Shown piece by piece: positions 1-14,623 of a DNA stretch of 64,000 bases. The notes under the pieces are model-generated. The model saw only the letters and a list, made by a program, of their open reading frames with translations, was not told the origin of the DNA and did no database searches. Position 1 is the stretch's first letter. The number at the start of each line of letters is the position of its first letter. Position numbers and translations under genes: made by a program. Source of the DNA: Pseudoxanthomonas indica (lineage in GTDB: Bacteria > Pseudomonadota > Gammaproteobacteria > Xanthomonadales > Xanthomonadaceae). The stretch spans positions 558,001 to 622,000 of the forward strand of contig NZ_FUZV01000002.1 of NCBI RefSeq assembly GCF_900167565.1, given 5' to 3'.

Positions 1-2
1 AG

Positions 3-179
3 ACCTTCGACCAGAGCCTGTTCGAGCTGTACCAGGCCGGCGAGATCTCGTACGAAGATGCGCTGCGCTATGCCGACTCGCAGAACGAGGTGCGCTTGCG
101 GATCAAGCTGTCGCAGGGTGGTGATGCACGGACCTTGGCGCAGGGGTTGGATGGGGTTGAGGTGGCGGAAGTGCGCTGA
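3..179 (+). CDS. pilU: PilU-like type IV pilus ATPase, C-terminal end only
   Basis: Open at the left edge; 58 codons remain before a TGA. The readable end has the pattern FDQSLFELYQAG, then a Y-E-D-A-L-R block and QNEVRLRIKL, which closes PilT/PilU-type twitching-motility ATPases. The acidic tail after the RLRIKL block favours PilU over PilT. In this family the protein is a cytoplasmic hexameric ATPase that powers pilus retraction at the inner-membrane base. No Walker motifs are visible because the N-terminal part lies outside the window. A strong intrinsic terminator follows, so the next gene is a separate unit. The family call is from memory of the tail only. Confidence 0.7.
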   Translation, partial: TFDQSLFELYQAGEISYEDALRYADSQNEVRLRIKLSQGGDARTLAQGLDGVEVAEVR

Positions 180-205
180 GGCGCTGACACTGCAGAATGA
201 CGACA

Positions 206-232
206 AGAGCCCGCAGAGATGCGGGCTCTTTT
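206..232 (+). terminator. Rho-independent terminator after the pilU-like gene
   Basis: Perfect stem AGAGCCCGCA / TGCGGGCTCT around a GAGA loop, followed by TTTTA. It lies about 27 bp after the stop codon. A closely similar hairpin recurs at 5446-5477. Confidence 0.9.
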
Positions 233-347
233 ATTGGAGAAGATCCTTCGTTCTAGCTTGCTATTTGCAGGTGGCAAGAAGCAGAAGAAACCGAGGTATA
301 TTTAACTTGAAGTGATGCTCGACTGTTCAATCTCAAGGAAGGATTTA

Positions 348-3300
348 ATGAAACGGAAGCTTGGGCGGAGTGCTGCAGATTGCGTCGTGGCGGATTGGGC
401 AAAGGCGCTAAATCCAGCTGGTTTCAGGTTGGTCCTAGCGGCACTGCTTGTGTTCCTTAGTGCGCCGCTGGGAGCATTCCCCACATATGCAGACCAAGGC
501 GAAGCGTTCGCAGCATGCATGGCGAAAGCACATATTCAAAAACCCTCTGGTTCATCTGTTGCGGATTGTAAATTCCAGGAGCCGGGATACCGCCTCTATT
601 GGCGCGGACCGTCCGGGTGGGGCAATACGATTGGAAACTCGGAGAACTGGCATACATACCCTTCAAACAACAAATGTTCGGCCCGAACCGGTGGTCCGAC
701 TCAAGCGATGTCCAGCGAGAGTTTGAGCTGTGATCGAGGATGTGAGTATGCCGCTGGACAAGGAGGACTTCCCGAACAAACGGGAAGAACATGCCATGCA
801 CTGCCCACGTTTCCTGACCCATTCAAGAACACATGCTGCACTGGGGATGCGGCGGTAACCGCAGGAAACCCTGTCAACTTCAATACCGGAGCAAAGATAG
901 CGACTGCCGTCGATTTCACTGCCGGGAGTGGGCGCCTTGAATTTTCGCGCATCCATTCCAGCGGGTGGCGGGTGACGCTGCTGACGGAGATGGGTAGCAC
1001 GTGGCAGCACACCTATATGCGGAAAATCGCCACGGTCGACTCCGACACTGTCAAGGTAATGCGGCATTCGGGAGAGGTGTACGTGTTCCGCAAGTACGGC
1101 GGCGCGTGGATGAGAGATCCGGATGTCCCCTACACGTTGGAGGAAATGACGTCGGGTGGCGTACTCTCAGGATGGGTGCTTCGAGCTCCGGACGATTCGG
1201 ATGAATTCTTCGATGCCGATGGCAAGCTGATTGCCGTTGACTGGGGCGACGGTGACTCCTTGGCGTTGGAGTACACGGGAGGCCAGTTGACCAAAGTGGT
1301 AGATGCCCATGGTCGAGCATTGCTGCTCGGATACACCAATGGCGTCGTCACAAGCGTGGCCACGCCGGATGGATCCACATTGGTGTACACCTACGACACC
1401 GCGATGCGCATTACCAAAGTGGAGATCAATGACGGAGTCTCCACAAGTCAGATTGCGCGCTATTCTTACACCAGCGCCTCCTATACCAAGGCATTGACTC
1501 AGCGATGGGATGAGAACAATGCCATCTATGGGACTTGGACCTACGGCAGCAATGGACGCGTGAGTCGAAGTGTTCACGGGAATCCTGCGGGAAAAATCGA
1601 TGAGCTGACCTTCACCTATGGCACCGGAACAGCGACCGTGACGGACGCTCTGGGTGCACAAACTACCATTGGATCGACCGTCATCTATGGGCGAGCCAGG
1701 TCGACGGGTGCCGACAAAATCTGTCCATCCTGCAACGGCAAGGTATTCGCTGCCCAAACGCTCGATGTCAACGGCTATGCAGACACTCAAGTCGACTTCA
1801 ATGGCGTATTGGCAGACCTCGACTTCAACCCGAGAGGACTGCTCGTAAAGCGGGTGGATTCCGCCAACGAGCCGGATTTCAAGCGAACAACTGAAACGGC
1901 GTGGCACTCAATGTTTCGCAAGCCAGTCCAGAGAGACGTTCGTGACGCCTCCGGTGGCCTGCTGACCCGACAGACATTCACCTACAACAGTCGGGGACAG
2001 TCGCTGCATTCAACGCGCTGGGATGCCAACCTAACTAATGGACGTGCCCAGACGACTGCCTACTGCGAACCTGCGGATATCGCCGCGAACCTGTGTCCGC
2101 TGGAAGGCCTAGTACGGGCAGTAGATGGCCCCCTGCCGGGCATCGTGGATCGGACCAACTTTGAATACTACCCTGCGGACGAAGCCAGCTGTGCCTCCGC
2201 TCCTTCGACCTGCCCTTATCGGAAAGGCGACCTGTGGAAGGTGACCAATCCCTTAGGGCACCTCGTTGAAACTTTGAAGTACGACGGTGCGGGTCGGGTC
2301 TTGTCGAGCAGGGACGCAAATGGTGTCGTCACCGACCGCCAATATCATGCGCGTGGCTGGCTGACCGCCGTCAAAGTGCGCGGCACCGACGATGCGGTCG
2401 AAACCGACGATGCCATCACTCGAATTGAGTACTGGCCCACCGGTCTGGTCAAGCGAGTCACGCAGCCGGATGGTGCATACACGCAGTTCACCTATGACCA
2501 GGCTCATCGGCTCACCGACGTCACCGACAACGGCGGAAACTTCATCCACTACACGCTGGACTTCAACGGAAATCGCATCAAGGAGGACACCAAGAACAGC
2601 AGCGGCGTCCTCAAACGTACGTTGAGTCGGGTCTTCAACCAACTGGGACAGTTGACCACGCTGGCAGATGCACAGGCCAATCCGACGGACTTCACCTATG
2701 ACGCAAACGGCCACAGCAACACCGTGACCGATGCGCTCAGCCGGGTCACTGATAGCGACTATGACCCACTGAACCGGCTGTCGCGGACTCTGCAAGATGT
2801 CGGGGGCATCGAGGCAGAGACCAAGCTTGCCTACGGTCCGTTGGACAACCTGACCAAGGTGACGGACCCGAAAGGACTGGACACCATCTACACCTACAAT
2901 GGTTTGGGTGATCTGACTCAGCTGAGTAGTCCAGATACGGGCGTTACGACATACACGTATGACGCCGCAGGCAACCGCGCCACGCAGACCGATGCTCGCG
3001 GCATCGCCTCCACCTATTCGTATGATGCCTTGGGCAGGATCTCGGCTATTTCCTATCCAACTTCGTCATTGAACGTGGGCTACGTCTACGACACCACACA
3101 GGCGGCGTGCATCGCTGGCGAGACTTACTCCATTGGGCGCACGACCCGGATGGATGATGCCAGTGGCAACACCCAGTACTGCTACAACCGATTAGGCCAG
3201 CTGGTCCGCAAGGTTCAGACCACCAATGGCATTCCCTTCACCGTGCGCTACGCGTGGGACAAGGCAGGTCAGCTGATTGGCATGGTCTACCCGGATGGCA

Positions 3301-4715
3301 GCGAAGTCGACTACACCCGCAACGCATTGGGCCAAATTACGGCCATGGGCATCACCCGACCGGGCCAGGCGCGAGAAGTGCTGGTTAGCCAAGTGACCTA
3401 CCTGCCTTTTGGACCAACAGCCGGCTGGACCTTTGGCAATGGACGAGTCATGACCCGTTCGTACGATCAGGATTACCGACCCACCGCCATTCTCGATTCC
3501 GCGCCAGGCGGACTGTCGCTTGGATTTGGCTATGACGTCGTAGGCAACTTGACCAAGTTGGGTACAGTCGCGGGCATTACCTCTCCGGCCATCACGTTTG
3601 GTTACGACACATTGGGCCGGCTGACGCGTTCCGAAGATGGCCCTACCGCCGTGGCAATCGACGCCTATAGCTATGACGCCACTGGCAACCGTCTTTCGCA
3701 TAGCACTGCGACCGGAACTTCCGCCTATACCTATCCGTCCGGCAATCACCACCTGACCTATGTAGGTGGCACGGCGCGCGGCTACGATGCGGTGGGCAAC
3801 ACCACCAACATTGGCAGCGGACGCGAGTTCGTCTACAGCGACGCCAATCGCCTGAGCCAGGTGAAGAACGGTGGCACGGTCGCGATGAACTACACGTACA
3901 ACGGCCGGGGAGAACAGGTACGCCGTCACCTTGGCAGCACCAACAGTTACACCATATATGACGAATCTGGCCACTGGCTGGGAGACTACGACAGCAGCGG
4001 TGTAGCGCTGCAGCAAGCGTTGTGGATGGATGAGCTACCGGTAGGACTGATCGCCAATGGTGGACAGTTGCATTACATCGAGCCGGACCACCTGGGTTCA
4101 CCAAGGGTTGTCATAGAAGTGGCGCGAAATGTGGCCGTATGGAGGTGGGATTTGAAGGGAGAAGCATTTGGCGCGACAACGGCTGAGGAGGATGTGGACG
4201 GTGATAGCGTGCCGCTTGTGTTGGATATGCGATTCCCTGGGCAGCGTTATGACCGTCATTCCGCGCTGAATCAAAACTACTTTCGAGACTACGAACCTTC
4301 AACCGCCCGATACATTCAAAGCGACCCAATTGGGCTTATCGCTGGGACTTCAACATACACATACATAGAAAGTAACCCGCTGATCAACTACGACCTGCTG
4401 GGGCTGGCCGGCGGAATGGACTCGCCGAATGCGACACTGAGATCGGCGATCGCGAGAGGCGACGTTAGGCAACTGGAAGCGATCATGGAATCCCTCGCGC
4501 CAGCGGAGCAACAATTGGCCAAAGAAGCAATTCGGAAGTTCAATTCACGTGCCGCAGACTGGATTTCAAGAGAATGCAGAGGTTCTATCAATCGTGAATT
4601 TCCGAGCCAGTTCCGCGACAAGACTCTCAAGGAAATACTTGAGCTTTCAAAATCTGGCGATTCAATGGCAAAAAAAGCATGGAAACTCCTCAATGACTCA
4701 AGATTCAGAAAATAA
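348..4715 (+). CDS. RHS/YD-repeat protein 1 with polymorphic C-terminal tip
   Basis: Large exported RHS protein of 1455 residues. The ATG at 348 is chosen because AAGGAAGG (335-342) lies just before it; a GTG at 312 is in frame but has no such site. A long n-region is followed by a hydrophobic stretch (about residues 28-46) and an A-x-A-like cleavage point near 48, so it looks Sec-exported. A Cys-rich N-terminal part leads to a DUF6531-like start (GNPVNFNTGAK, about 173) and then dozens of YD repeats (G.v..Y.YD..GN). The RHS core ends around residues 1324-1353 (SDPIGL ... YDLLGL). The final roughly 100 residues (AIARGDVRQLEAIMES..., R/K-rich) differ from RHS protein 2 and are an unassigned candidate toxin tip. 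In characterised RHS proteins the repeats form a shell around the tip. The tip DNA is AT-richer than the core. The adjacent overlapping gene is the likely immunity gene. No VgrG, PAAR or T6SS gene is in the window, so the export route is unknown. Confidence 0.9.
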   Translation: MKRKLGRSAADCVVADWAKALNPAGFRLVLAALLVFLSAPLGAFPTYADQGEAFAACMAKAHIQKPSGSSVADCKFQEPGYRLYWRGPSGWGNTIGNSENWHTYPSNNKCSARTGGPTQAMSSESLSCDRGCEYAAGQGGLPEQTGRTCHALPTFPDPFKNTCCTGDAAVTAGNPVNFNTGAKIATAVDFTAGSGRLEFSRIHSSGWRVTLLTEMGSTWQHTYMRKIATVDSDTVKVMRHSGEVYVFRKYGGAWMRDPDVPYTLEEMTSGGVLSGWVLRAPDDSDEFFDADGKLIAVDWGDGDSLALEYTGGQLTKVVDAHGRALLLGYTNGVVTSVATPDGSTLVYTYDTAMRITKVEINDGVSTSQIARYSYTSASYTKALTQRWDENNAIYGTWTYGSNGRVSRSVHGNPAGKIDELTFTYGTGTATVTDALGAQTTIGSTVIYGRARSTGADKICPSCNGKVFAAQTLDVNGYADTQVDFNGVLADLDFNPRGLLVKRVDSANEPDFKRTTETAWHSMFRKPVQRDVRDASGGLLTRQTFTYNSRGQSLHSTRWDANLTNGRAQTTAYCEPADIAANLCPLEGLVRAVDGPLPGIVDRTNFEYYPADEASCASAPSTCPYRKGDLWKVTNPLGHLVETLKYDGAGRVLSSRDANGVVTDRQYHARGWLTAVKVRGTDDAVETDDAITRIEYWPTGLVKRVTQPDGAYTQFTYDQAHRLTDVTDNGGNFIHYTLDFNGNRIKEDTKNSSGVLKRTLSRVFNQLGQLTTLADAQANPTDFTYDANGHSNTVTDALSRVTDSDYDPLNRLSRTLQDVGGIEAETKLAYGPLDNLTKVTDPKGLDTIYTYNGLGDLTQLSSPDTGVTTYTYDAAGNRATQTDARGIASTYSYDALGRISAISYPTSSLNVGYVYDTTQAACIAGETYSIGRTTRMDDASGNTQYCYNRLGQLVRKVQTTNGIPFTVRYAWDKAGQLIGMVYPDGSEVDYTRNALGQITAMGITRPGQAREVLVSQVTYLPFGPTAGWTFGNGRVMTRSYDQDYRPTAILDSAPGGLSLGFGYDVVGNLTKLGTVAGITSPAITFGYDTLGRLTRSEDGPTAVAIDAYSYDATGNRLSHSTATGTSAYTYPSGNHHLTYVGGTARGYDAVGNTTNIGSGREFVYSDANRLSQVKNGGTVAMNYTYNGRGEQVRRHLGSTNSYTIYDESGHWLGDYDSSGVALQQALWMDELPVGLIANGGQLHYIEPDHLGSPRVVIEVARNVAVWRWDLKGEAFGATTAEEDVDGDSVPLVLDMRFPGQRYDRHSALNQNYFRDYEPSTARYIQSDPIGLIAGTSTYTYIESNPLINYDLLGLAGGMDSPNATLRSAIARGDVRQLEAIMESLAPAEQQLAKEAIRKFNSRAADWISRECRGSINREFPSQFRDKTLKEILELSKSGDSMAKKAWKLLNDSRFRK

Positions 4716-5022
4716 CTTCTACATTGCTTTCATACTTAGTCGTTCAACGAGAGACAACTCGGAGCCTGGCTTGTGGGAAGAGTGCGTTGCGGTAGTAGAG
4801 GCTTCCTCAGAAGATGAGGCGACGAGAGTCGCGGCCGCTTTTGGTCGAGAACGCCAGACATCATTCACTTCCATTGACGGAACATTGATTGCATGGGAAT
4901 TCCATTCGGTGACGCAGGTTTCCATGCTCGAGATCCCTCTCAAGAATGGGTATGAAATTAGTAGTCGTCACTTGCGCAATGATGAGGCTGTCAGTTTGCT
5001 GAGGCCAATCGATGATGATTGA
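4693..5022 (+). CDS. DUF4288-like small protein, candidate immunity protein of RHS 1
   Basis: Protein of 109 residues starting at the ATG at 4693, which overlaps the 3' end of RHS 1 by 23 bases in another frame. An in-frame start at 4549 would lie deep inside the RHS gene and is not preferred. The order of features matches the DUF4288 family as I remember it: Y-I-A-F-I-L strand, LWEECVAVVEASSEDEA, T-x-I-A-W-E-F, then E-I-S-S-R near the end. It has no signal peptide or membrane segment, so it is probably cytoplasmic. The position directly after a variable RHS tip is the standard place for an immunity gene, but neutralisation is inferred from context only. Base composition is as AT-rich as the RHS tip, suggesting the two were acquired together. 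Confidence 0.75.
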   Translation: MTQDSENNFYIAFILSRSTRDNSEPGLWEECVAVVEASSEDEATRVAAAFGRERQTSFTSIDGTLIAWEFHSVTQVSMLEIPLKNGYEISSRHLRNDEAVSLLRPIDDD

Positions 5023-5186
5023 TGGGCGAGATGAGGAAAGGCAGCGCCATTTTATTGGGTATGTATGCAGGTCTGACGGATCGCGCTTGGCACCATGGAT
5101 TTTCTTTTCTGATTCGCGTGCGTGACGGCGACTTGGAATTATTCATAGTGCGTCCGATAGCGCCTCTGGTCGAACGAGAGTTGCGT

Positions 5187-5430
5187 GTATGGCTGGCACA
5201 GAGCGCTCATCCCTTCGTCCTCACCGGCGCCGGCATCAGCACCGCCTCCGGCATCCTCGACCACCGCGACACTAACGGCCAGAGGAAGCGCATGCCGCCG
5301 GTCACATATCAGGCCTTCGTCGGTGACCCGTTGACCAACGCGCGCTACTGGGCGCGCAGCGTAATCGGCTATCCGTGCATGGCGCAGTCGCTGCCCAATG
5401 CGCGCATCGCGGAAGAGCGGTAGCCACCTA
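5187..5430 (+). pseudogene. Truncated, decayed copy of the sirtuin gene 5' part
   Basis: This stretch is homologous to 11033-11297, the start of the intact sirtuin gene. Shared text includes [37 protein letters not shown] and GYP-MAQS-PNA. It has substitutions in normally invariant places (P to L and Y to H after ASGI). The reading frame then fails: after PNA about 26 bases of the intact gene are missing, and a TAG at 5421-5423 ends the frame. Homology seems to resume briefly up to about 5430. The catalytic His, the zinc-binding cysteines and the rest of the Rossmann fold are absent. An open frame runs from 5019 into this segment, but its first 55 residues resemble nothing I recognise. I regard it as a remnant of duplication or insertion at the RHS locus, not a working gene. 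Confidence 0.85.
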
Positions 5431-5445
5431 CGCATCTGGAGAAAG

Positions 5446-5477
5446 ACAAAAGCCCGCAGTGATGCGGGACTTTTGTT
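5446..5477 (+). terminator. Rho-independent terminator after the sirtuin remnant
   Basis: Hairpin AAAAGCCCGCA / TGCGGG-A-CTTTTG with a GTGA loop and one bulged A, followed by TTTG. It is nearly the same as the hairpin at 206-232, so it is either a lineage-typical terminator or part of the duplicated unit. Confidence 0.75.
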
Positions 5478-5821
5478 TGTCGCCGTCTCGACGAACAGCG
5501 GTGCCGCTTGATTAGCCGCTACTCGGCTTTGGGACGCAGGTCAAAGTTGCGCCAGCCAACTTGACCTAGCCTCAGCCAAGTCGAGAACCGCACAGCCGGC
5601 TCGCCGACGCAGGGGACACTCCAGGATGGGGGAATCGCATGCTTGAAGGATCGTGGCAAACCGCAACGAACGCCGTTCCAGGCAATTGCCTTCTCCAGGC
5701 GCGCAGCATCGCGCGCGACCCATCGCACCCGCCGTAACGTCACCAGCCACCGCGGGCCAACGCGCCTGCTGTCCGTCTACAACCCGCTCATCTGAAACAG
5801 AGACCTGCGCAAGGAGCATTT
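5478..5821. other. Intergenic region before RHS protein 2
   Basis: About 340 bases without a credible gene; the short open frames on both strands lack ribosome sites and family features. It should contain the promoter of the second RHS gene, but I see no convincing -35/-10 pair. Only the AAGGAG at about 5810-5815, just before the ATG, is clear. Confidence 0.5.
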
Positions 5822-8800
5822 ATGGGATCTCGCACGCTGGCTGCCCTTGCGGGCATGGCTTTGTTCTTGATCAGCTTCTCCAGTTGGGCGGGAGATGAGG
5901 TGTGCCTGGAAAATGGTGGGACGAAAAGCTGCGCTCGACCGAGCGAAGATTGGACGGCAGCTGTATGCGTCGAACAGATGAGCCACTTCGCGATTGACAG
6001 TGCAATGTGTCGACTGCTCGGTGGCGTGTATCAGGGTGGAAATTCGAATCCCGCTTGCATCGGCGGCGAACCATTCATCACGAAAGAGACCGCTGCCGAG
6101 CTGGCAGATGAATACTTCGCAGAAAGATACAGCTGTCCCTACACATCAAAATCAGATACGGGTTGGGGCGCCTCGCTGCCTGCCAGCTATTTCTGCTATG
6201 CCGGACCCTCTACATACAGGTACGGACAGCTCAAGGAGGAGTTTCGCAAGTTCACGTTCTCCGGCAAGGCAAGGAATTTCGACGGGACATGCTCGCTTGA
6301 TACAACTGTCTCGCTGATTACAACCAATGTCCGTGACGTCATGTGCGCGCCAGGAGCTGTTTCGTTGTACGGCGCAAACAATACGTGGCTGGATTGCTTC
6401 AACGAGCATGACAAGACGTGTCCCATCAACAACCCGGTGATGCCGGGCGATGGCATGCATGTGAAAAGCGAAGTCGACTTTCAGGCTCCGGGAAGCCCAC
6501 TTCGATTCGTTCGGACATTCGCACCGGCAAATGGATCCGTACCGCGCGTTTCGACGGCAAGCAGTCCGATGACCGTTGGAAAGTACTGGTACTTCAACTA
6601 TGGGATGAGAGTCGACAAAGTAGTGAACTCCGATTACGTCGCGGCCATAGCTACTCGGGATGATGGTTCACGAGTGTACTTTGATCCAAGCGGCAATCCG
6701 CTTCAGAGATCCGATGGGGAATTCATTCGCTACGAAGAACTGCCGGACGGAAGCATGGTTATTACGCAAGGCGCGGACACCGAGCGGTACACGTCCGACG
6801 GAAAACTAGGCCGCATCGACTACGCTTCAGGCCAGTACGTCCAGCTCACTTACGACGACCCAAACAGGAGGATCGATGCGCAGGACCAGAATGGACGGAC
6901 GCTATCGATCCATTACTGGAGGGCGAGGGTTCCGAGCCATATCGTGATGCCCGATGGCGGAACAATCACGTACGGCTATGACAGCGTCAAGCGGACACTG
7001 AACAAGGTGAAGTTTGCAGATGGCGCATCCCGTACGTTCAACACGACATTCACCGGCAATGGCCGTTTCGACGTTTATGACGAACTTGGAGTCCTCTATT
7101 CGACCCATCTTTACACACACCAGACTTTGGGAGCCCGCATAAGCAGTTCCAACCTTGCTTCCGGACTCTCGGGAGGGCAAGTCGGACGACAGATATACAC
7201 CTACACTCAAGGCAGCAACGGAGCCTCCAGCCTCGCCGTCACCGGCCCCCTCGGGCAGGCAGTGACCAGGAACTACCAAACCAAAGGCAACACCAAGAAG
7301 CTGGTTTCGCAGACCCAACTATGCGCCACTTGTGGCGGCTCGACCGCCAGCAAGACCTACGATGCCAACGGCTATGTCGACGTCGAGACGGACTTCAAGG
7401 GCAGCACCACCGACTACACGATAGACAGTGCCGGTCGGGAGCTTTCCCGCATTGAAGCGGCCAACGACACCACCGGCCAGAAGCGAACCATCGAAACAGA
7501 CTGGCACGCCACGCTGAAGTTGCCCCTGGAGCGGCGTACCCGGGACGCAACGGGCCTGCTCAAGGCTCGTACGGTATGGACCTATAACGCGCGGGGCCAG
7601 GTGCTGACACTGTCGGCAGTGGATACCCTCACCGGTGCGCAGCGCACGCAGTCCTACGCCTACTGTGAGGCATCCGATGTGTTGGCCAACACGTGCCCGC
7701 TGGTTGGCTTGCTGCTGTCAGCGGATGGTCCGCTTGCAGGGACGGTCGACAGGTCAACGTATCACTACTACGCGGCCGACGATGCTTCGTGCGCGACTAC
7801 GCCGACCACCTGCCCTCACCGCAAGGGCGACCTGTGGAAGGTCACCAACGCACTCGGCCAGACCATGGAGACCCTGCGGTATGACGGCGCCGGTCGGACG
7901 CTTTCAGTCAAAGACCCCAACGGCGTGGTGACGGATCAGGAGTACCACGCGAGAGGTTGGCGGACAGCAACCAAGGTTCGCGGCGCCGATGACAACGTCG
8001 AGACCGATGACGTCATATCACGGGTGGAGTACTGGCCGACGGGTCTGGTCAAGCGGGTTACCCAGCCCGATGGTTCCTATACCCAGTTCACCTACGACCA
8101 GGCGCACCGGCTGACGGACGTGACGGATGCTGCGGGAAACTACATCCACTACGTGCAGGACTTTGCAGGCAACCGCATATCCGAGCAGACCAAGGACAGT
8201 GGTGGAAACCTGAAACGCAGTTTGAGCCGAGTGTTCAATCAGCGCAGCCAACTGCTCACCCAGGCAGACGCACAAGCCAATCCCACCGACTTCACCTACG
8301 ATGCCAACGGCAACACGAAGACCATCACCGACGCGCTGGATCGAGTCACGGATCAGAGCTACGACCCACTGAACCGGTTAGCGCGCACGTTGCAGGACAT
8401 GGGCGGAATCGCGGCGGAAACGCGCTTCGCCTATGACGCGCTGGACAACCTGGTCAAGGTCACCGACCCCAAGGGTTTGGATACAACCTACTCATACAAC
8501 AGCTTGGGTGATCTGACTCAACTAAGTAGTCCAGATACTGGCGTCACGACATACACCTACGATGCAGCTGGTAACCGGTCCACACAAACCGATGCGCGAA
8601 ACGTCACCTCCGTATACGCTTACGACGGGCTGGGGCGAATTACCGGAGTCAGCTACCCGACCACATCGCTCAATGTTGGCTATGTCCATGATCTGACGCA
8701 GGGTGTGTGCGCGACGGGCGAGACTTATTCCGTAGGCCGCTTGACCCGCATGAATGACGCCAGTGGCAATACACAGTATTGCTACAACCGGTTTGGCTAC

Positions 8801-10492
8801 CTTGCCAGAAAGGTACAGACCACCAACGGCATCGCATTCACCGTTCGCTATCTTTGGAACGCGGCCGGCCAGATGCTTGGCATGGTGTATCCAGATGGAA
8901 GCGAGGTTGATTACAGCCGCAATGCCTTAGGGCAGTTAGTTGGGATTGGCATAACTCGGCCAGGTCAGGCGCGCGAGGTCCTGCTTAATCAGGTGACGTA
9001 CCTACCGTTCGGTCCAACTTCGGGATGGATCTACGGCGATGGGCGGGTCATGACGCGTTCGTATGACCAGAACTACCGGCCCACTGCCATCTTGGATGCT
9101 TCACCCGGCGGTCTGTCGCTTGGGTTTGGTTACGACGCAGTCGGCAACTTGACCAAGCTCGGTACGGCTATGGGCATTTCAACTCCAGATATGGTGTATG
9201 GCTACGACGCTCTAGATCGGCTGACTCGGACAGCAGATGGTCCGACTAATGTAGCCATTGACTCTTACAGTTACGATAAAACCGGCAATCGACTGTCTCA
9301 TGCGACAGCTGCTGGAACAGCACTTTACGCGTACTCGCCAACCAGTCACCGTTTGGAATCGGTGGAAGGAGTTACGAGAACTTTCGATTCAGCAGGAAAC
9401 ACTTTGGCGATTGGAAGTCGGACCTTCGTGTACAGCGCTGCGAATAGGATGAGCGAAGTTCGGAACGAAGGGAATGTAGTGATGAGCTACGCCTACAACG
9501 GGCGGGGCGAGCAAGTGCTTCGGCAGTCGGGAGGTGAAAACTTCATTACCATCTACGATGAGCTGGGGCATTGGTTGGGCGATTACAGTCAACTCGGAAC
9601 GCCAGTGCAGCAAGTAGTCTGGAATGATAATTTTCCAATCGGTTTGCTTGCCAACGGAGGGAGGTTGCACTACGTCGAACCTGACCACCTTGGAACCCCT
9701 AGGGTAGTAATCGAGTCGGCGCGTGATATCGCTGTCTGGACGTGGGACATTCACGGCGAGGTGTTTGGTGAGTCATCGCCGAAAGAAGACCAAGATGGAG
9801 ATCTTCTCCCATTAGTTTTTAACCTGCGATTCCCTGGGCAGCGATATGACGCCGCAGCGGGGCTAAACTCCAACTACTTTCGGAATTATGAGCCTGGCAG
9901 TGGGCGCTACATGGAGAGTGATTCAATGGGGATGGCTGCCGGCGTAAATACCTACAGTTACGCTTCGTCCACCCCCTTTGTATTGGTGGATCCTTACGGC
10001 ATGAGTGGCACCTGTCCTGCATCACCTTCGTACAAACCTAGCTTTTGGAATGACGGTGGGCACATACAGGGTACAAACAACTGCTACAGCTATGCTGCGG
10101 ATAGACCTGAAAACCCGGCTAGCCAATTGCCACGACCTTTTCCCTACCTTCCTCAACCAGGAGAGTGGAGTGGACGACCATTCGAGAGCCTAACTTGCCG
10201 TTCAATAATTCGAGCAGCGGTTAGCGACGGCATGACGAAGCCAGACTCCAAGGGCAATTGTCCATCGTGCACACACAAGGTGTACCTTGTCGTTGCTCCT
10301 GAAGTTGACTACCACTGGTACAGACAAGATGGAGACGGGACATGGTCACACAAGCCTGGCCTAATGCCGGTGAGCAACCTTGACGCCTCGGGAAAAGTAA
10401 TCACCAATCCTGCTGCTGCGAACAGCAATTACGCCCCGAATGGCCCCAACTATTCCAAAAAGTGTGGTGTGCTATGCGCTTTGAATCGGTGA
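5822..10492 (+). CDS. RHS/YD-repeat protein 2 with candidate cysteine-hydrolase-like tip
   Basis: 1556 residues. The ATG is preceded by AAGGAG at ideal spacing. Residues 1-23 form a clear Sec signal peptide (cleavage near SSWA/GD). A Cys-rich N-terminal part is followed by a DUF6531-like block (NNPVMPGDG ... PLRFVRTF) and long YD repeats. The central part, from LWKVTN through about GFGYD, is close to RHS 1 in protein and in stretches of DNA. The RHS core ends at D-P-Y-G-M, about residue 1390. The last roughly 165 residues are unrelated to the tip of RHS 1. They carry NNCYSYA (Cys1421), C...C, VDYHWYR (His1498) and GTWSHKPG, then a Cys-rich end. A conserved Cys and His in such motifs suggest a cysteine hydrolase of papain or NlpC/amidase style. 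That is inference from residue pattern, not a recognised domain. A small overlapping exported gene follows, as expected for immunity to an extracytoplasmic target. Confidence 0.9.
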   Translation: MGSRTLAALAGMALFLISFSSWAGDEVCLENGGTKSCARPSEDWTAAVCVEQMSHFAIDSAMCRLLGGVYQGGNSNPACIGGEPFITKETAAELADEYFAERYSCPYTSKSDTGWGASLPASYFCYAGPSTYRYGQLKEEFRKFTFSGKARNFDGTCSLDTTVSLITTNVRDVMCAPGAVSLYGANNTWLDCFNEHDKTCPINNPVMPGDGMHVKSEVDFQAPGSPLRFVRTFAPANGSVPRVSTASSPMTVGKYWYFNYGMRVDKVVNSDYVAAIATRDDGSRVYFDPSGNPLQRSDGEFIRYEELPDGSMVITQGADTERYTSDGKLGRIDYASGQYVQLTYDDPNRRIDAQDQNGRTLSIHYWRARVPSHIVMPDGGTITYGYDSVKRTLNKVKFADGASRTFNTTFTGNGRFDVYDELGVLYSTHLYTHQTLGARISSSNLASGLSGGQVGRQIYTYTQGSNGASSLAVTGPLGQAVTRNYQTKGNTKKLVSQTQLCATCGGSTASKTYDANGYVDVETDFKGSTTDYTIDSAGRELSRIEAANDTTGQKRTIETDWHATLKLPLERRTRDATGLLKARTVWTYNARGQVLTLSAVDTLTGAQRTQSYAYCEASDVLANTCPLVGLLLSADGPLAGTVDRSTYHYYAADDASCATTPTTCPHRKGDLWKVTNALGQTMETLRYDGAGRTLSVKDPNGVVTDQEYHARGWRTATKVRGADDNVETDDVISRVEYWPTGLVKRVTQPDGSYTQFTYDQAHRLTDVTDAAGNYIHYVQDFAGNRISEQTKDSGGNLKRSLSRVFNQRSQLLTQADAQANPTDFTYDANGNTKTITDALDRVTDQSYDPLNRLARTLQDMGGIAAETRFAYDALDNLVKVTDPKGLDTTYSYNSLGDLTQLSSPDTGVTTYTYDAAGNRSTQTDARNVTSVYAYDGLGRITGVSYPTTSLNVGYVHDLTQGVCATGETYSVGRLTRMNDASGNTQYCYNRFGYLARKVQTTNGIAFTVRYLWNAAGQMLGMVYPDGSEVDYSRNALGQLVGIGITRPGQAREVLLNQVTYLPFGPTSGWIYGDGRVMTRSYDQNYRPTAILDASPGGLSLGFGYDAVGNLTKLGTAMGISTPDMVYGYDALDRLTRTADGPTNVAIDSYSYDKTGNRLSHATAAGTALYAYSPTSHRLESVEGVTRTFDSAGNTLAIGSRTFVYSAANRMSEVRNEGNVVMSYAYNGRGEQVLRQSGGENFITIYDELGHWLGDYSQLGTPVQQVVWNDNFPIGLLANGGRLHYVEPDHLGTPRVVIESARDIAVWTWDIHGEVFGESSPKEDQDGDLLPLVFNLRFPGQRYDAAAGLNSNYFRNYEPGSGRYMESDSMGMAAGVNTYSYASSTPFVLVDPYGMSGTCPASPSYKPSFWNDGGHIQGTNNCYSYAADRPENPASQLPRPFPYLPQPGEWSGRPFESLTCRSIIRAAVSDGMTKPDSKGNCPSCTHKVYLVVAPEVDYHWYRQDGDGTWSHKPGLMPVSNLDASGKVITNPAAANSNYAPNGPNYSKKCGVLCALNR

Positions 10493-10866
10493 TTTTCGCC
10501 CTGGCGATGGGTGCCTCTATGAATGCATGCGCTGGACAAGGAGCTATCAACTCAAATCTTACTCAGTCAGACATTGATAGCCTGGAGACGCCTACTTTCA
10601 CAAAGCAAGAACTTTCGTCGGGAAGTGACGAATTCCTTGTTGTCACAAGAAACTACGGGTCTGGCTTAGAGCTTCGAGATGCATATGTTTACCGACGTGG
10701 GGCAGGCGGGCAGTGGGACATGATTGCTTTCCGGAGGACGAACTCATCGCGCGTAGAAGGTAGTCTTTCGGCCAATCGATTGACGCTCACGGCGAAATCG
10801 GGAAAGGTCGTCCTGGAAGTTCCAATCGAACCTTCCGGATTCAAGTTTGATCCAATGGAACGGTAG
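10474..10866 (+). CDS. Small exported protein or lipoprotein, candidate immunity protein of RHS 2
   Basis: 130 residues from the ATG at 10474, overlapping the RHS 2 stop by 19 bases. The N-terminus is a short positively charged start, a hydrophobic segment and S-M-N-A-C-A-G. Cys19 could be a lipobox Cys, though the -3 residue is unusual, so a plain signal peptide is also possible. The remainder is hydrophilic: an acidic linker, then an alternating pattern resembling a small beta-sheet domain (EFLVVTRN, LRDAYVYRR, LTLTAKSGKVVLEVP). No family is recognised. Position and export signal fit an immunity protein that protects the periplasm from the RHS 2 tip. This is inferred from context only. Confidence 0.65.
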   Translation: MRFESVIFALAMGASMNACAGQGAINSNLTQSDIDSLETPTFTKQELSSGSDEFLVVTRNYGSGLELRDAYVYRRGAGGQWDMIAFRRTNSSRVEGSLSANRLTLTAKSGKVVLEVPIEPSGFKFDPMER

Positions 10867-10979
10867 TTGGGTTTGAATCATTTCGTCGCCCTTGTGTTGT
10901 TTGTTCTGTTGAGCGTCGATATGCCGGATTGGGAGATTGGGCAGTGTGTTCAAAAGCAGCATCTCCAGTCCCAGAAACA

Positions 10980-11819
10980 ATGGGATGTTGCAAGCTCATC
11001 GATGCACAGGACTCGCATTCCGTGGCATTGCTTCGGGCCTGGCTGACTTCACAAGCTCATCCCTTCATCCTCACCGGCGCCGGCATCAGCACCGCCTCCG
11101 GCATCCCCGACTACCGCGACACTGACGGCCAGTGGAAGCGTACGCCGCCAGTCACGTATCAGGCCTTTGTCGGTGACCCACTGACCAACGCCCGCTACTG
11201 GGCGCGCAGTTTCATCGGCTATCCGCGGATGGCGCAGTCGCAGCCCAATGCCGCGCACCATGCGCTCGCGCGCTGGCAGCGGGAGGGCAGGTTATCCACC
11301 TTGCTGACGCAGAACGTGGATGGCTTGCACGAGCGTGCCGGCAGTCGCGATGTCATCGACTTGCATGGGCGTATTGATCAGGTGACCTGTCTGCACTGCC
11401 AAACCCTGTCTGCCCGAAGCGAGTTGCAGGTCCGCCTGCACGAAGCCAATCCGGAGTGGCATGACCTTGAGGCGGCCACGGCGCCGGATGGTGATGCGGA
11501 TTTGGAAGGGCAGGACTTCAGTCGCTTCCAGGTGCCGGTGTGCTTGGACTGCGGCGGGATGCTGAAGCCTGATGTGGTGTTCTTTGGGGAGAACGTGCCG
11601 CGGGCGCGTTATGAAGCGGCGCGGGAGGCTTTGCTGGCTTCGGACGCGCTGTTGGTGGTTGGGTCTTCGCTGATGGTGTATTCCGGGTATCGGTTTGCGC
11701 GGATGGCGCATGAGGCGGGGTTGCCGATTGCGATACTTAATCGGGGGCGGACGCGTGCAGACGAATTGGCAAGCCTGAAAGTGGTAGCTGATTGTGTGGA
11801 GGTTTTGGCGGGGATCTGA
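10980..11819 (+). CDS. Sirtuin, NAD-dependent protein deacylase (Sir2 family)
   Basis: Removes acyl groups from protein lysines using NAD+. Motifs in order: [15 protein letters not shown] (NAD loop), [14 protein letters not shown] with the catalytic His, CLHC and CLDC (four zinc ligands), KPDVVFFGE, and [11 protein letters not shown]. The intervening insertion between the Cys pairs ([13 protein letters not shown]) is somewhat long, as in the larger bacterial sirtuins. The start is uncertain: a TTG at 10929 and the ATG at 10980 are in frame, and a GTG at 11022 has AGGA eight to ten bases ahead and may be the real one. Codons before about 11030 do not resemble other sirtuins, consistent with a rearranged 5' end. 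A broken copy of this 5' part lies at 5187-5430. It sits downstream of the second RHS cassette with no sign of a shared function. Confidence 0.9.
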
Positions 11820-11840
11820 TGGAACTGGGCTTCGTCTGCC

Positions 11841-11880
11841 CCCATCCCAACCTTCCCCCGCAAGCGGGAGAAGGGGCAGA
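11841..11880. repeat. Dispersed palindrome of the xanthomonad CCC-CGC-AAGC-GGG type
   Basis: CCTTCCCCCGC and GCGGGAGAAGG form an imperfect hairpin with an AA centre, between the convergent sirtuin and tag genes. Similar 'CCCATCC...CTTCCCGCAAGCGGGAGAAGG' text is common between genes in related genomes. A shorter related stretch appears at about 61953-61976. It may act as a bidirectional terminator. Confidence 0.6.
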
Positions 11881-11911
11881 TTGCGGACTTCTTTGCGTTT
11901 CGCGCGAGGTA

Positions 11912-12469
11912 TCAGCGCTTCGCCTTGCCCTTGGCTTTCTCCATCCACGGCGGCGACTTCTTCGCCGCCTTCGCATACGCCGGACAACTCTCGCGGTGCG
12001 CGCCGGGCAGATAGCCCAGGCTCATCAGGAACTCGCCGGTGATCTCGCCGCCGGTAAACCGGAACGTCTGCTTGAACAGCTTCACCCAGCCGGCCTTGTC
12101 GCGCGGATGGTTCGCCTGCAGCCATTCGTGGAATCCACCATGGCTCTTGCGCAGCCCCTGGATCACCTGCGCATTGTGGATGGCGGCATCCACTTTCAGC
12201 CGGTTGCGGATGATCCCCTCGTCGGCCAGCAGCCGTGCGCGGTCGTTGTCGCCGTAGGCGGCCACCTGGTCCACGTCGAAGCCGCTGTAGGCGCGGCGGA
12301 AGTCCTCGCGCTTGCGCAGCACGGTCTCCCAGCTCAGGCCGGCCTGGTTGATTTCCAGCAGCAGGCGCTCGAACAGCACGGCTTCCTCGCGCTGCGGGAA
12401 ACCGTATTCGCGGTCATGGTAGGGCCCATGCAAAGGGTGACCGGGGGCAAAGTCGCAATATCCACTCAT
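11912..12469 (-). CDS. tag: DNA-3-methyladenine glycosylase I
   Basis: Base-excision repair enzyme that removes 3-methyladenine from alkylated DNA. The 185-residue length fits the family. Features: N-terminal CDF (Cys ligand), Y-H-D-x-[23 protein letters not shown] (the helix bearing the catalytic region), [12 protein letters not shown], and C-terminal Y-L-P-G-A-H with CPAY, which supply His and Cys for the structural zinc. The C-terminus is an unusual lysine-rich tail (EKAKGKAKR). Start ATG at 12469; the gene is convergent with the sirtuin gene and divergent from algH, only 36 bases away. Confidence 0.93.
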
Positions 12470-12505
12470 GTAATCAGGTTAACGCGAGCGGGCTATGATG
12501 TGGCC

Positions 12506-13069
12506 ATGTCCCCCGACTCGTTCCTCGCCAACCAGCTGCTGATTGCCGCACCGGCACTGGATGACCCCAACTTCTCCCGCGCCGTGACCCTGGTCTGCCA
12601 GCACGACGGTGAGGGCGCGATGGGCGTGGTCATCAACCGCCGCTCCGAATACACGCTGGGCGAGGTGCTGGAGCAGATGCAGCTGAAGACCGGCGACGCC
12701 GGCCTGCGCGAACAGATCGTGCTCAGCGGCGGGCCAGTGCATCCGGAACGCGGCTTCGTGCTGCATGACGACGCGCGCGAGTGGGAATCCACCCTGCGCG
12801 TGGCCGACGGCCTGTACCTGACCACCTCGCGCGACATCCTGGAAGCCATGGCCGCCGGCATCGGTCCCGAACACGCCATCGTCACCCTGGGCTGTGCAGG
12901 CTGGGGCGCGGGACAGCTGGAATACGAACTGGGTGAGAACACCTGGCTGACCGCGCCGTCCGATGCGACGGTGCTGTTTGAATTGCCGCTGGAGCAACGT
13001 TGGCAGGCGGCGGCAGGGTTGATTGGGGTCGATATGACGCGCTTGACGGACTACAGCGGACACGCATGA
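12506..13069 (+). CDS. algH: AlgH/YqgE family (UPF0301) protein
   Basis: 187 residues beginning [16 protein letters not shown], the usual opening of this family, then [24 protein letters not shown] and [15 protein letters not shown]. The family is known from AlgH of Pseudomonas (alginate regulation) but its molecular role is not settled. A long open frame extends upstream to 11792, but those codons have no family similarity, so the ATG at 12506 is used. It is followed by ruvX after 67 bases and then pyrB. The algH-ruvX-pyrB order is widely conserved in gammaproteobacteria. Confidence 0.92.
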
Positions 13070-13136
13070 AACGCGGATTCCCCCGTTCCGGCGCCAGGGC
13101 GGTTGCCTGGTTCCGGCCGCGTTTCGGGAGCAGAGC

Positions 13137-13589
13137 ATGAAACTGGATGGCACGGTACTGGGCTTCGATGTCGGCGCGCGGCGCATTGGCGTGGCGGTAG
13201 GCAGCGCCTTCGGCAGTGGCGCGCGGGCCTTGGCGGTGGTGGATGTGCATGCGCACGGGCCGGACTGGCCGGCCATCGACAAGCTGCATGCGGAATGGAA
13301 ACCGGACGGCCTGGTGGTCGGGGATCCCATGACCCTGGATGGCGGTGATCAACCCATCCGCAAACGCGCGCAGGCCTTCGCCCGCGAGCTGCATGCGCGC
13401 TACCAGCTGCCGGTGGTGCTGATTGACGAGCGCGCCAGTTCCATCGAGGCCGCCCAGCGCTTTGCCCTGGACCGTGCCGAAGGGCGCAAGCGCAAGCGCG
13501 ATGCGGTCGCGCTGGACGCGGTAGCCGCGGCGGTCATCATCGAGCGCTGGCTGGCCGCGCCGCAGGACGCCACCCAGGTCACCCTCTAG
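13137..13589 (+). CDS. ruvX: Putative pre-16S rRNA nuclease / Holliday junction resolvase-like protein
   Basis: YqgF/RuvX family with an RNase H-like fold. 150 residues. The first acidic residue is in LGFDVGARRIGVAVG, the central K-P-D-G-L-V-V-G-D-P is followed by a second motif DERASSIEA, and the last acidic residue is in D-A-V-A-A-A. GGGAG lies shortly before the ATG at 13137. The family matures the 5' end of 16S rRNA in E. coli; a Holliday junction role has also been proposed. It sits between algH and pyrB as in related genomes. Confidence 0.92.
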   Translation: MKLDGTVLGFDVGARRIGVAVGSAFGSGARALAVVDVHAHGPDWPAIDKLHAEWKPDGLVVGDPMTLDGGDQPIRKRAQAFARELHARYQLPVVLIDERASSIEAAQRFALDRAEGRKRKRDAVALDAVAAAVIIERWLAAPQDATQVTL

Positions 13590-13675
13590 GAGGGGCTTGC
13601 GCCCCGACCCTCGGCAAACTGTCCGAAAGCGGGCTCAGGATTTATCCTGTGCAGGCCCAACCCGCCTGTGACGCC

Positions 13676-14623
13676 ATGACCCTGCAAATCGATTCCGACG
13701 GACGCCTGCGCCATCTGCTGACTCTCGAGGGCCTGCCCCGCGAAACGATTTGCCGCTTGCTGGACCGGGCCGGGCATATCCGCGATGCCGCGCTGGGGCG
13801 CACCACCCAGCGGCGCAGCTCGCTGGTGGGCACCACCGTGTGCACGCTGTTCTTCGAACCCTCCACCCGCACCCGCAGCTCCTTCCAGATTGCGGCGCAG
13901 CGCCTCGGCGCAGACGTGCTGAACTTCGATGCCTCCACCTCGTCCACCCGCAAGGGCGAGACCGCGCGCGACACACTCAAGAACCTGGAAGCCATGGGCG
14001 TGCGCGGCTTCGTGGTGCGGCATGCCGAAGACGGGGCGGTGGAAGCGCTGGCCGCGGCGGCAGGCGAGGGCACCACTCTGGTCAACGCCGGCGACGGCCG
14101 CAGCGCCCATCCCACCCAAGGCCTGCTGGATGCGCTGACCCTGCGCCAGGCCAAGGGTCCGGACTTCTCCAGGTTGAAGGTGTTGATCGTCGGCGACGTC
14201 AAGCACTCGCGGGTGGCGCGTTCGGATCTGCATGCACTACGCACGCTGGGCACCGGCGAAATCCGCGTCTGCGGGCCGGCCTCGCTGTTGCCGGATGCGG
14301 ACACGCTGGCCGGCTGCGAAGTGGGCCAGGATTTCGACGCCATGCTCGAAGGCGTGGACGCGGTGATGATGTTGCGCCTGCAACGCGAGCGGATGGAAGA
14401 AGGCTTGATCGCCTCCATCGACGAATACCACAACGACTACGGCCTGACCGCGCAGCGCCTGACCCGCGCCGCGAAGGAAGCGGTGGTGCTGCATCCGGGC
14501 CCGATCAACCGCGGCGTGGAAATCACCGACGAAGTGGCCGACGGCCCGCAGTCACTGGTGCTGCGCCAGGTCAGCAACGGCGTGGCCATCCGCATGGCCG
14601 TGCTGGAAATGCTGCTGGGCTGA
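13676..14623 (+). CDS. pyrB: Aspartate carbamoyltransferase, catalytic subunit
   Basis: Second step of de novo pyrimidine synthesis: carbamoyl phosphate plus aspartate to carbamoyl-aspartate, in the cytoplasm. 315 residues. Key motifs: FFEPSTRTR (carbamoyl phosphate site), SSTRKGE, HPTQGLLDALT, IVGDVKHSRVARS and H-P-G-P-I-N-R-G (aspartate side). The ATG at 13676 (MTLQIDSDG) is preferred over a GTG at 13649. There is no pyrI or pyrC next to it in the window. It is convergent with the GGDEF gene four bases beyond its stop. Confidence 0.95.
   Translation: MTLQIDSDGRLRHLLTLEGLPRETICRLLDRAGHIRDAALGRTTQRRSSLVGTTVCTLFFEPSTRTRSSFQIAAQRLGADVLNFDASTSSTRKGETARDTLKNLEAMGVRGFVVRHAEDGAVEALAAAAGEGTTLVNAGDGRSAHPTQGLLDALTLRQAKGPDFSRLKVLIVGDVKHSRVARSDLHALRTLGTGEIRVCGPASLLPDADTLAGCEVGQDFDAMLEGVDAVMMLRLQRERMEEGLIASIDEYHNDYGLTAQRLTRAAKEAVVLHPGPINRGVEITDEVADGPQSLVLRQVSNGVAIRMAVLEMLLG

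Follow-up and report, generated by a model that had tools for sequence, protein, structure and literature searches.

Toxins in which a signal peptide precedes RHS repeats have been tabulated under 'T2SS/Sec-dependent system' (T2SS, type II secretion system; Table 1 of Zhang et al. 2012, PMC3482391), and the general kind of system treated here, the Sec-exported RHS toxin, is therefore already known. The locus in question occupies positions 348 to 10,866 of a 64,000-nucleotide stretch of Pseudoxanthomonas indica (assembly GCF_900167565.1, contig NZ_FUZV01000002.1, positions 558,001 to 622,000; hereafter the window). It encodes two RHS proteins in tandem, RHS1 and RHS2, each with its own C-terminal end (tip 1 and tip 2) and its own small downstream gene (partner 1 and partner 2). 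It resembles the Sec/T2SS-type RHS toxins as tabulated and described in PMC3482391 in its signal peptides, RHS repeats, variable C-terminal toxin regions and downstream immunity genes. It differs from them in that neither tip reaches the cut-off of a Pfam or NCBIfam family, nor tip 2 that of a PHROGs family, and the two tip types, matching no searched family above cut-off, seem to be undescribed.

We consider it probable that this is a tandem polymorphic toxin locus working as follows. After Sec export each RHS protein would fold in the periplasm, forming a shell that is stapled by disulfides and encloses its C-terminal tip, and the shell would cross the outer membrane through the T2SS. Tip 1, whose partner lacks a signal, would act in the cytosol of the target cell, and tip 2, whose partner would be exported, in the target periplasm or on the cell wall; in each case the overlapping downstream gene would protect kin. 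The tandem form would have arisen by the joining of two alleles of the chromosomal site between pilU and sir2.

Other described systems share parts of this design. Rhs effectors of the type VI secretion system (T6SS) have the same RHS shell and core end, and the closest solved structures by sequence are Tse15 (8uy4) and Tse5 (8cp6); for Serratia T6SS Rhs proteins, the part of PMC10539506 dealing with it describes exchange of tip-immunity modules by recombination in the conserved core. Unlike these effectors, the window RHS proteins carry an export signal, no PAAR or VgrG domain was found in them, and the genome gave no match to the sheath gene VipB. Bacterial Teneurin-like proteins (PDB 9pt5 and 9ifo) have a similar shell (E 9.5e-19), and those portrayed in the relevant part of PMC13018210 are likewise exported YD-shell proteins with a C-terminal toxin, a downstream immunity gene and no known delivery machine. 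They differ in that the paper predicts SPII signals for the Gram-negative members, whereas no lipobox was seen in the window proteins. No NHL domain appeared in the Pfam scan of the RHS proteins or in a genome search in which no control was matched. MafB of Neisseria is, in the account given in part of PMC4287609, another Gram-negative case of signal-peptide-dependent polymorphic toxin secretion for which the outer-membrane step had not yet been identified, and it differs in having a DUF1020 N-terminal domain and no RHS shell. The titles and opening parts of abstracts that were surveyed contained no report of such a system in Pseudoxanthomonas.

The two cassettes are laid out as follows.

348..4715, plus strand: RHS1, from ATG to stop, 1455 residues; export signal, Cys-rich N-terminal domain, DUF6531, RHS/YD shell, Rhs_assc_core and tip 1
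4407..4712, plus strand: tip 1, about residues 1354-1455 (about 102 residues); small helical domain, unrelated to tip 2
4693..5022, plus strand: partner 1, from its ATG, presumed immunity protein; shares 23 nucleotides (4693-4715) with the end of RHS1; DUF4288, no signal
5822..10492, plus strand: RHS2, 1556 residues; export signal, Cys-rich N-terminal domain, weak DUF6531, RHS/YD shell, Rhs_assc_core and tip 2
10004..10489, plus strand: tip 2, about residues 1395-1556 (about 162 residues); conserved domain in which C1421 (within NNCY) and H1498 (within DYHWYR) are invariant
10474..10866, plus strand: partner 2, from its ATG, presumed exported immunity protein; shares 19 nucleotides (10474-10492) with the end of RHS2

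The preliminary description had reported RHS proteins of 1455 and 1556 residues, and their lengths and coordinates proved exact, as did the overlaps of 23 and 19 bases between each RHS stop and a different small gene. Both proteins matched the Pfam family RHS_repeat (E 4.9e-49 in RHS1, 2e-52 in RHS2) and DUF6531, the latter in RHS2 with 23.3 bits, below the cut-off of 24.1, while the NCBIfam Rhs_assc_core match ends at residue 1353 in RHS1 and 1394 in RHS2. When the two were compared in 60-column blocks, the N-terminal stretches, to about residue 575 of RHS1, were 20-43% identical in protein, and the shells, from about residue 575 to about residue 1354, were 52-83% identical in protein and 54-77% in DNA. 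Beyond about residue 1354 the tips are unrelated, in agreement with the earlier claim of a related central region and unrelated last 100-165 residues. The junction ahead of tip 2 reads SDSMG...VDPYG, so that the 'D-P-x-G-like' junction suggested earlier is borne out by VDPYG, and fits the first half, SDSMG, loosely. Export signals were called by a home-made hydrophobic-stretch rule, which is crude and is not SignalP. By this rule the N terminus of each RHS protein is Sec-like, and Pfam and NCBIfam scans found no T6SS-type N-terminal domain such as PAAR or VgrG in either of them, as had been described.

To see how this arrangement compares with that of related strains, the chromosomal site has to be considered. 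It is bounded by the following two genes.

1..176, plus strand: 3' end of pilU, left flank (by tblastn, window 3-176 is 100% identical to the pilU of the genus genome G001 over 58 aa)
10929..11819, plus strand: intact sir2 (NAD-dependent deacetylase), right flank (NF003738, 421 bits)

RHS1 follows pilU, the remainder of which was located together with pilT in the fetched region L039, and RHS2 and partner 2 stand ahead of sir2. The sir2 gene is present in 35 of 38 genus genomes, and its surroundings were fetched from 20 of these 35. Nine genus genomes, the own genome included, show either the interval from pilU to sir2 or the conserved genes downstream of it, and three of the nine (own, G022 and G036) have RHS upstream of sir2, with four different tips. 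The other six are without RHS: in G001 and G015 a 193-aa gene separates pilU from sir2, and in G004, G009, G029 and G014 pilU adjoins sir2 (the G014 contig stops in pilU). At the remaining 12 fetched sir2 loci pilU is not near sir2. In G022 and G036 the contig stops within the RHS gene, and the pilU side is unseen. Behind the G022 tip comes an unrelated small gene that overlaps it, and a quinone-oxidoreductase-like gene (by eye) is found ahead of sir2. The G036 tip upstream of sir2 (L045) contains an HEQSH motif, with a lipoprotein-like gene behind it; it is perhaps another envelope-acting tip with an exported partner. The G022 and G036 tips and the genes next to them (four proteins) matched no Pfam toxin or immunity family.

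Tip diversity is also high in the genus at large. RHS open reading frames were collected from 60 fetched genus regions and the G022 and G036 loci, and 47 passed the filter, a subset of the Rhs_assc_core matches. With the window's two included, 37 of 49 tips could be parsed, one of which (L117, 1449 aa) is mis-parsed, and the remaining 12 could not; the 37 fell into 33 groups, 30 of them singletons. Surveyed for tip swapping as the preliminary description had proposed, relatives thus proved to carry differing tips at this one site, and not tips conserved in all of them with no partner gene. These results support the view that the pilU-sir2 interval is a putative polymorphic toxin-immunity site at which tips are swapped.

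A second tip-2 cassette was found in G036 (P. wuyuanensis), where a separate short contig carries a tip 80% identical to tip 2, followed by a partner 54% identical to partner 2, then by a lipoprotein-like gene and then by another RHS gene with a signal-like start. A tip-2 cassette followed by a second exported-RHS gene suggests that RHS arrays recur. The lipoprotein-like gene itself (L165, 1534-2049) looks Sel1-like by eye and may serve as an additional immunity gene.

In all likelihood tip 2 is an enzyme of the Cys/His type whose site of action is the periplasm or the cell wall. Its family comprises 35 proteins at E <= 0.001, itself included, on carriers that include RHS proteins as well as proteins bearing Big_2 or RicinB-type domains, and the invariant residues of the alignment include C26 and H103, which are C1421 and H1498 of RHS2. 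No family in Pfam, PHROGs, NCBIfam or PDB was matched above cut-off; below threshold, DUF7689 appeared in 4 of 21 rows (best E 0.0038) and Imm53 in 10 of 21 (best E 0.074). By eye, tip 2 resembles the papain-like Tox-PL1, for which an NC-H-DxQ pattern is given in PMC3482391, in the NC and the H only. Partner 2 is signal-like by the home-made rule, and its P. wuyuanensis relative, which follows a tip of the same type, is signal-like even by a stricter version. In genome contigs 96 stretches encode tip-2-type domains, of which the best 80 were kept, and 88 loci across phyla were scanned for export. By the stricter rule, the next gene was exported-looking in 38 of 51 cases in which a tip-2-type gene has a close same-strand next gene, compared with 60 of 249 other neighbouring pairs (Fisher p 1.6e-11). 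Together with the exported-looking partner 2, this difference points to a target in the envelope. Among the 13 pairs with a non-exported next gene, the enzyme is also without a signal in eight (L173, L186, L206, L208, L227, L231, L237 and L242), which indicates that the compartments tend to match. Tip 2 thereby leads to a family that is widespread, has exported partners in most cases and is named in none of the libraries searched.

Some of the same observations tell against an envelope-acting tip with an exported immunity protein. Partner 2 itself fails the stricter rule, and in the other five of the 13 pairs (window, L175, L177, L180 and one at L243) the enzyme is exported and the next gene, by rule, is not. 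It should also be underlined that the export counts are not independent (L187/L190 and L218/L229 are near-identical) and that they include doubtful next genes (L187, L190, L204, L214 and L225).

The breadth of the tip 2 family also bears on whether the tips are toxins at all, since they might instead be self-processing or digestive enzymes, or adhesive ends. Many members of the family are not RHS proteins: tip-2-type domains are found in Bacillota, Alphaproteobacteria and others, in proteins whose lengths run from about 170 to more than 1000 aa, some are fused or next to an FSGRPNP-type domain, and none of the 35 proteins was seen to be named a toxin by its source. Against this, tip 2 forms the extreme C terminus behind Rhs_assc_core, relatives carry other tips at the same site, and partner 2 was found in 2 of 299 order genomes, precisely the two in which an RHS protein ends in tip 2. 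This co-occurrence is a further basis for the toxin/immunity layout, and we regard a non-toxin role as unlikely. Taken together, tip-2-type domains were seen in 9 of 398 order genomes, RHS-borne in two and in frames of 307-504 aa in the seven others, and in mobile elements as one phage record, one plasmid record and six IMG/VR viral contigs (L252-L257). An F/YSGxPNP-like domain, either after or N-terminal in tip-2-type genes, was noted with a signal at L169, L172, L178, L179 and L183, and with no signal seen at L186, L202, L206, L208, L222, L227 and L237. The partners of the tip-2-type genes at L162 and L206 matched no Pfam family.

For tip 1 a search gave six proteins, the window's own included. 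Its conservation lies mainly in the last ~55 residues, and the AlphaFold2 model, a confident one, is all helical (predicted local distance difference test, pLDDT, 91.4; predicted template modelling score, pTM, 0.77). When the 8000 best candidates were scored with a tip 1 profile, 322 short proteins were obtained, and 55 of the best 120 of these 322 carry an RHS junction motif, as judged by pattern. Tip 1 matched nothing above cut-off in Pfam, NCBIfam or PDB, with DUF1843 below threshold in 3 of 6 rows (best E 0.0055). It was found in no phage or viral contig, and partner 1 in no plasmid. Two order-level matches (G012 and G028, E ~8e-4) were marginal and were not used.

Partner 1 matches PF14119 (DUF4288; E=4.3e-13), a family for which a literature search found no paper, and it has no signal by the home-made rule. 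The next gene is without a signal at all five tip-1 loci that were read (window, L249, L250 and L251 by the hydrophobic-stretch rule, L153 by eye). Since its partner lacks a signal, tip 1 likely acts on a cytosolic target. The locus L153, from another family of the order (G387), encodes a 76-aa tip-1-like frame with no RHS shell in frame, and its stop is overlapped by a gene whose product belongs to DUF4288 (E 9.1e-7) and shares 30% identity with partner 1. L153 is thus a putative orphan tip-immunity pair and an independent case of the pairing of tip 1 with DUF4288 seen in the window. The other relatives sit on phage-head-like proteins (L249 and L250, by eye) and on a truncated Caballeronia RHS (L251). 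That tip 1 relatives on other carriers each precede a small gene, once DUF4288, again fits a toxin/immunity layout.

The identity of that small gene is less favourable to DUF4288 as the dedicated immunity family. DUF4288 stands beside tip 1 relatives at 2 of 5 loci (window and L153), and the other three (L249, L250 and L251) share a different small partner family, unlike DUF4288 and without a signal. DUF4288 is moreover common without RHS: it is present in 17 of the 299 order genomes, and none of nine other loci that were read has an RHS end upstream, one of the nine (L266) having a DUF4288 frame that was not cleanly read.

As to delivery, the preliminary description had found no T6SS gene in this neighbourhood, and the finding extends genome-wide for the sheath gene: VipB had no match in the own genome (the E. 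coli control matched) and occurs in 2 of 38 genus genomes. The type IV secretion system (T4SS) ATPase VirB4 likewise had no match in the own genome, and is present in 27 of the 38. Rhs_assc_core was found in 28 of 38 genus genomes, seven of which have neither VipB nor VirB4. GspD of the T2SS was matched in all 38 and above cut-off in 36, the own genome included. A Sec-like N terminus was scored in 34 of 39 full-length genus RHS proteins, the exceptions being L094, L097, L117, L125 and L139, the last with a signal-like stretch behind a start called too early. The N-terminal domains of RHS1 and RHS2 contain 8 and 11 Cys, and the six shell Cys of RHS1 at 573/583, 615/622 and 921/945, three pairs whose members lie close in sequence, are kept by all 10 subfamily members compared (459/462 by just 3 of the 10). 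The invariant pairs would suit oxidative folding in the periplasm, where the shell may form disulfides.

The T2SS is our preferred candidate for the outer-membrane step because it is the sole suitable machine found among the three searched (T6SS, T4SS and T2SS), a tentative choice that we hold at somewhat under an even chance. It is weakened by the fact that T6SS and T4SS were each judged by one gene, VipB and VirB4, and by the presence of GspD in every genus genome, which means that a T2SS cannot discriminate. The start of RHS1 is also uncertain, as the database protein P0041 has 1335 aa and starts 120 residues later, behind the signal; the ATG at 348 is preceded by AAGGAAGGA, a good ribosome site. 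The same toxin-immunity system might equally leave the cell by outer-membrane vesicles, by lysis or through Teneurin-like surface display. The signal peptides look type I, with no lipobox by eye, the universality of the T2SS is uninformative, and the MafB case cited above shows signal-peptide-dependent secretion by an outer-membrane route not yet identified. For Teneurin-like YD-shell toxins delivery is called unresolved by the authors in the part of PMC13018210 that treats it. On the other side, Pfam showed no membrane or surface anchor domain in RHS1 or RHS2. We take such an exit to be a serious possibility that falls a little short of evens. With no VipB or VirB4 match and a T2SS present, the own genome bears on the question of how exported RHS/YD shell toxins are delivered without a T6SS.

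The region between the two cassettes carries a scar that bears on the origin of the tandem.

208..225, plus strand: pilU terminator hairpin, first copy, behind pilU
5205..5401, plus strand: truncated sir2 head (scar), 197 nucleotides, 90% identical to 11055-11251
5451..5468, plus strand: pilU terminator, second copy, behind the sir2 fragment

The order of elements is thus pilU, terminator, RHS1, partner 1, sir2 head, terminator copy, RHS2, partner 2, sir2. The sir2 head is 90.4% identical to the own sir2 and 79.8% to that of G001 and G015. The terminator pattern (<=2 mismatches) occurs at just two places in the 64 kb window, 208-225 and 5451-5468, and the two align locally with a score of 43, which 0 of 500 shuffles reached (best 28 or 30). 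Of 251 fetched loci, five matched a looser hairpin pattern, GCCCGCANNNATGCGGG, and L039, L041 and L152 among these five represent the very region described here. An explanation of the second hairpin by a terminator generic to the genus is disfavoured, two exact copies being present in the window and 0.05 expected. Not significant were the 11-nucleotide pilU coding tail alone (equalled by 128 of 500 shuffles, against the G001 pilU) and the spacers ahead of the sir2 fragment and of sir2, which are unlike (488 of 500 shuffles as good).

A sir2 head and a terminator copy in this order suggest the joining of two alleles of one site, and the tandem is most likely a fusion of two pilU-RHS-immunity-sir2 alleles. 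Tandem position, same orientation and a shared shell family could also be explained by a recent duplication with later change of the tip. The shell DNA is just 54-77% identical, so RHS1 and RHS2 are not recent duplicates as far as identity can tell; their N-terminal parts have strongly diverged, and the sir2 fragment, at 90% identity to sir2, looks younger than the RHS split. We accordingly rate recent duplication as very improbable. As the sir2 piece is closer to sir2 than the shells are to each other, the allele fusion probably postdates the split of the RHS genes.

A wider and speculative proposal, which we think has a rather low chance of being right in full, is that Pseudoxanthomonas uses Sec-exported, disulfide-stapled RHS shells as a T2SS-released weapon without an injection machine. 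Such a weapon would strike two compartments at once, its helical tip acting in the cytosol and its Cys/His tip outside the cytoplasm. Tip 2 would then represent, on RHS proteins, an enzyme family not yet described that extends from Bacillota to Pseudomonadota and is usually followed by an exported partner gene, and pilU-sir2 alleles could be stacked to widen the payload.

PADLOC gave no match for RHS1, RHS2, partner 1 or partner 2. The own genome (3.96 Mb in 3 contigs, 100% complete) has three further RHS genes, at C2:1048413, C2:1404392 and C1:1689146, one of which has a short frame of 426 aa. Within window positions 1-14000 the G+C content is 51-62% across the cassettes compared with 63-68% in the 3 kb after 11000, with the minimum at the tips and partners.

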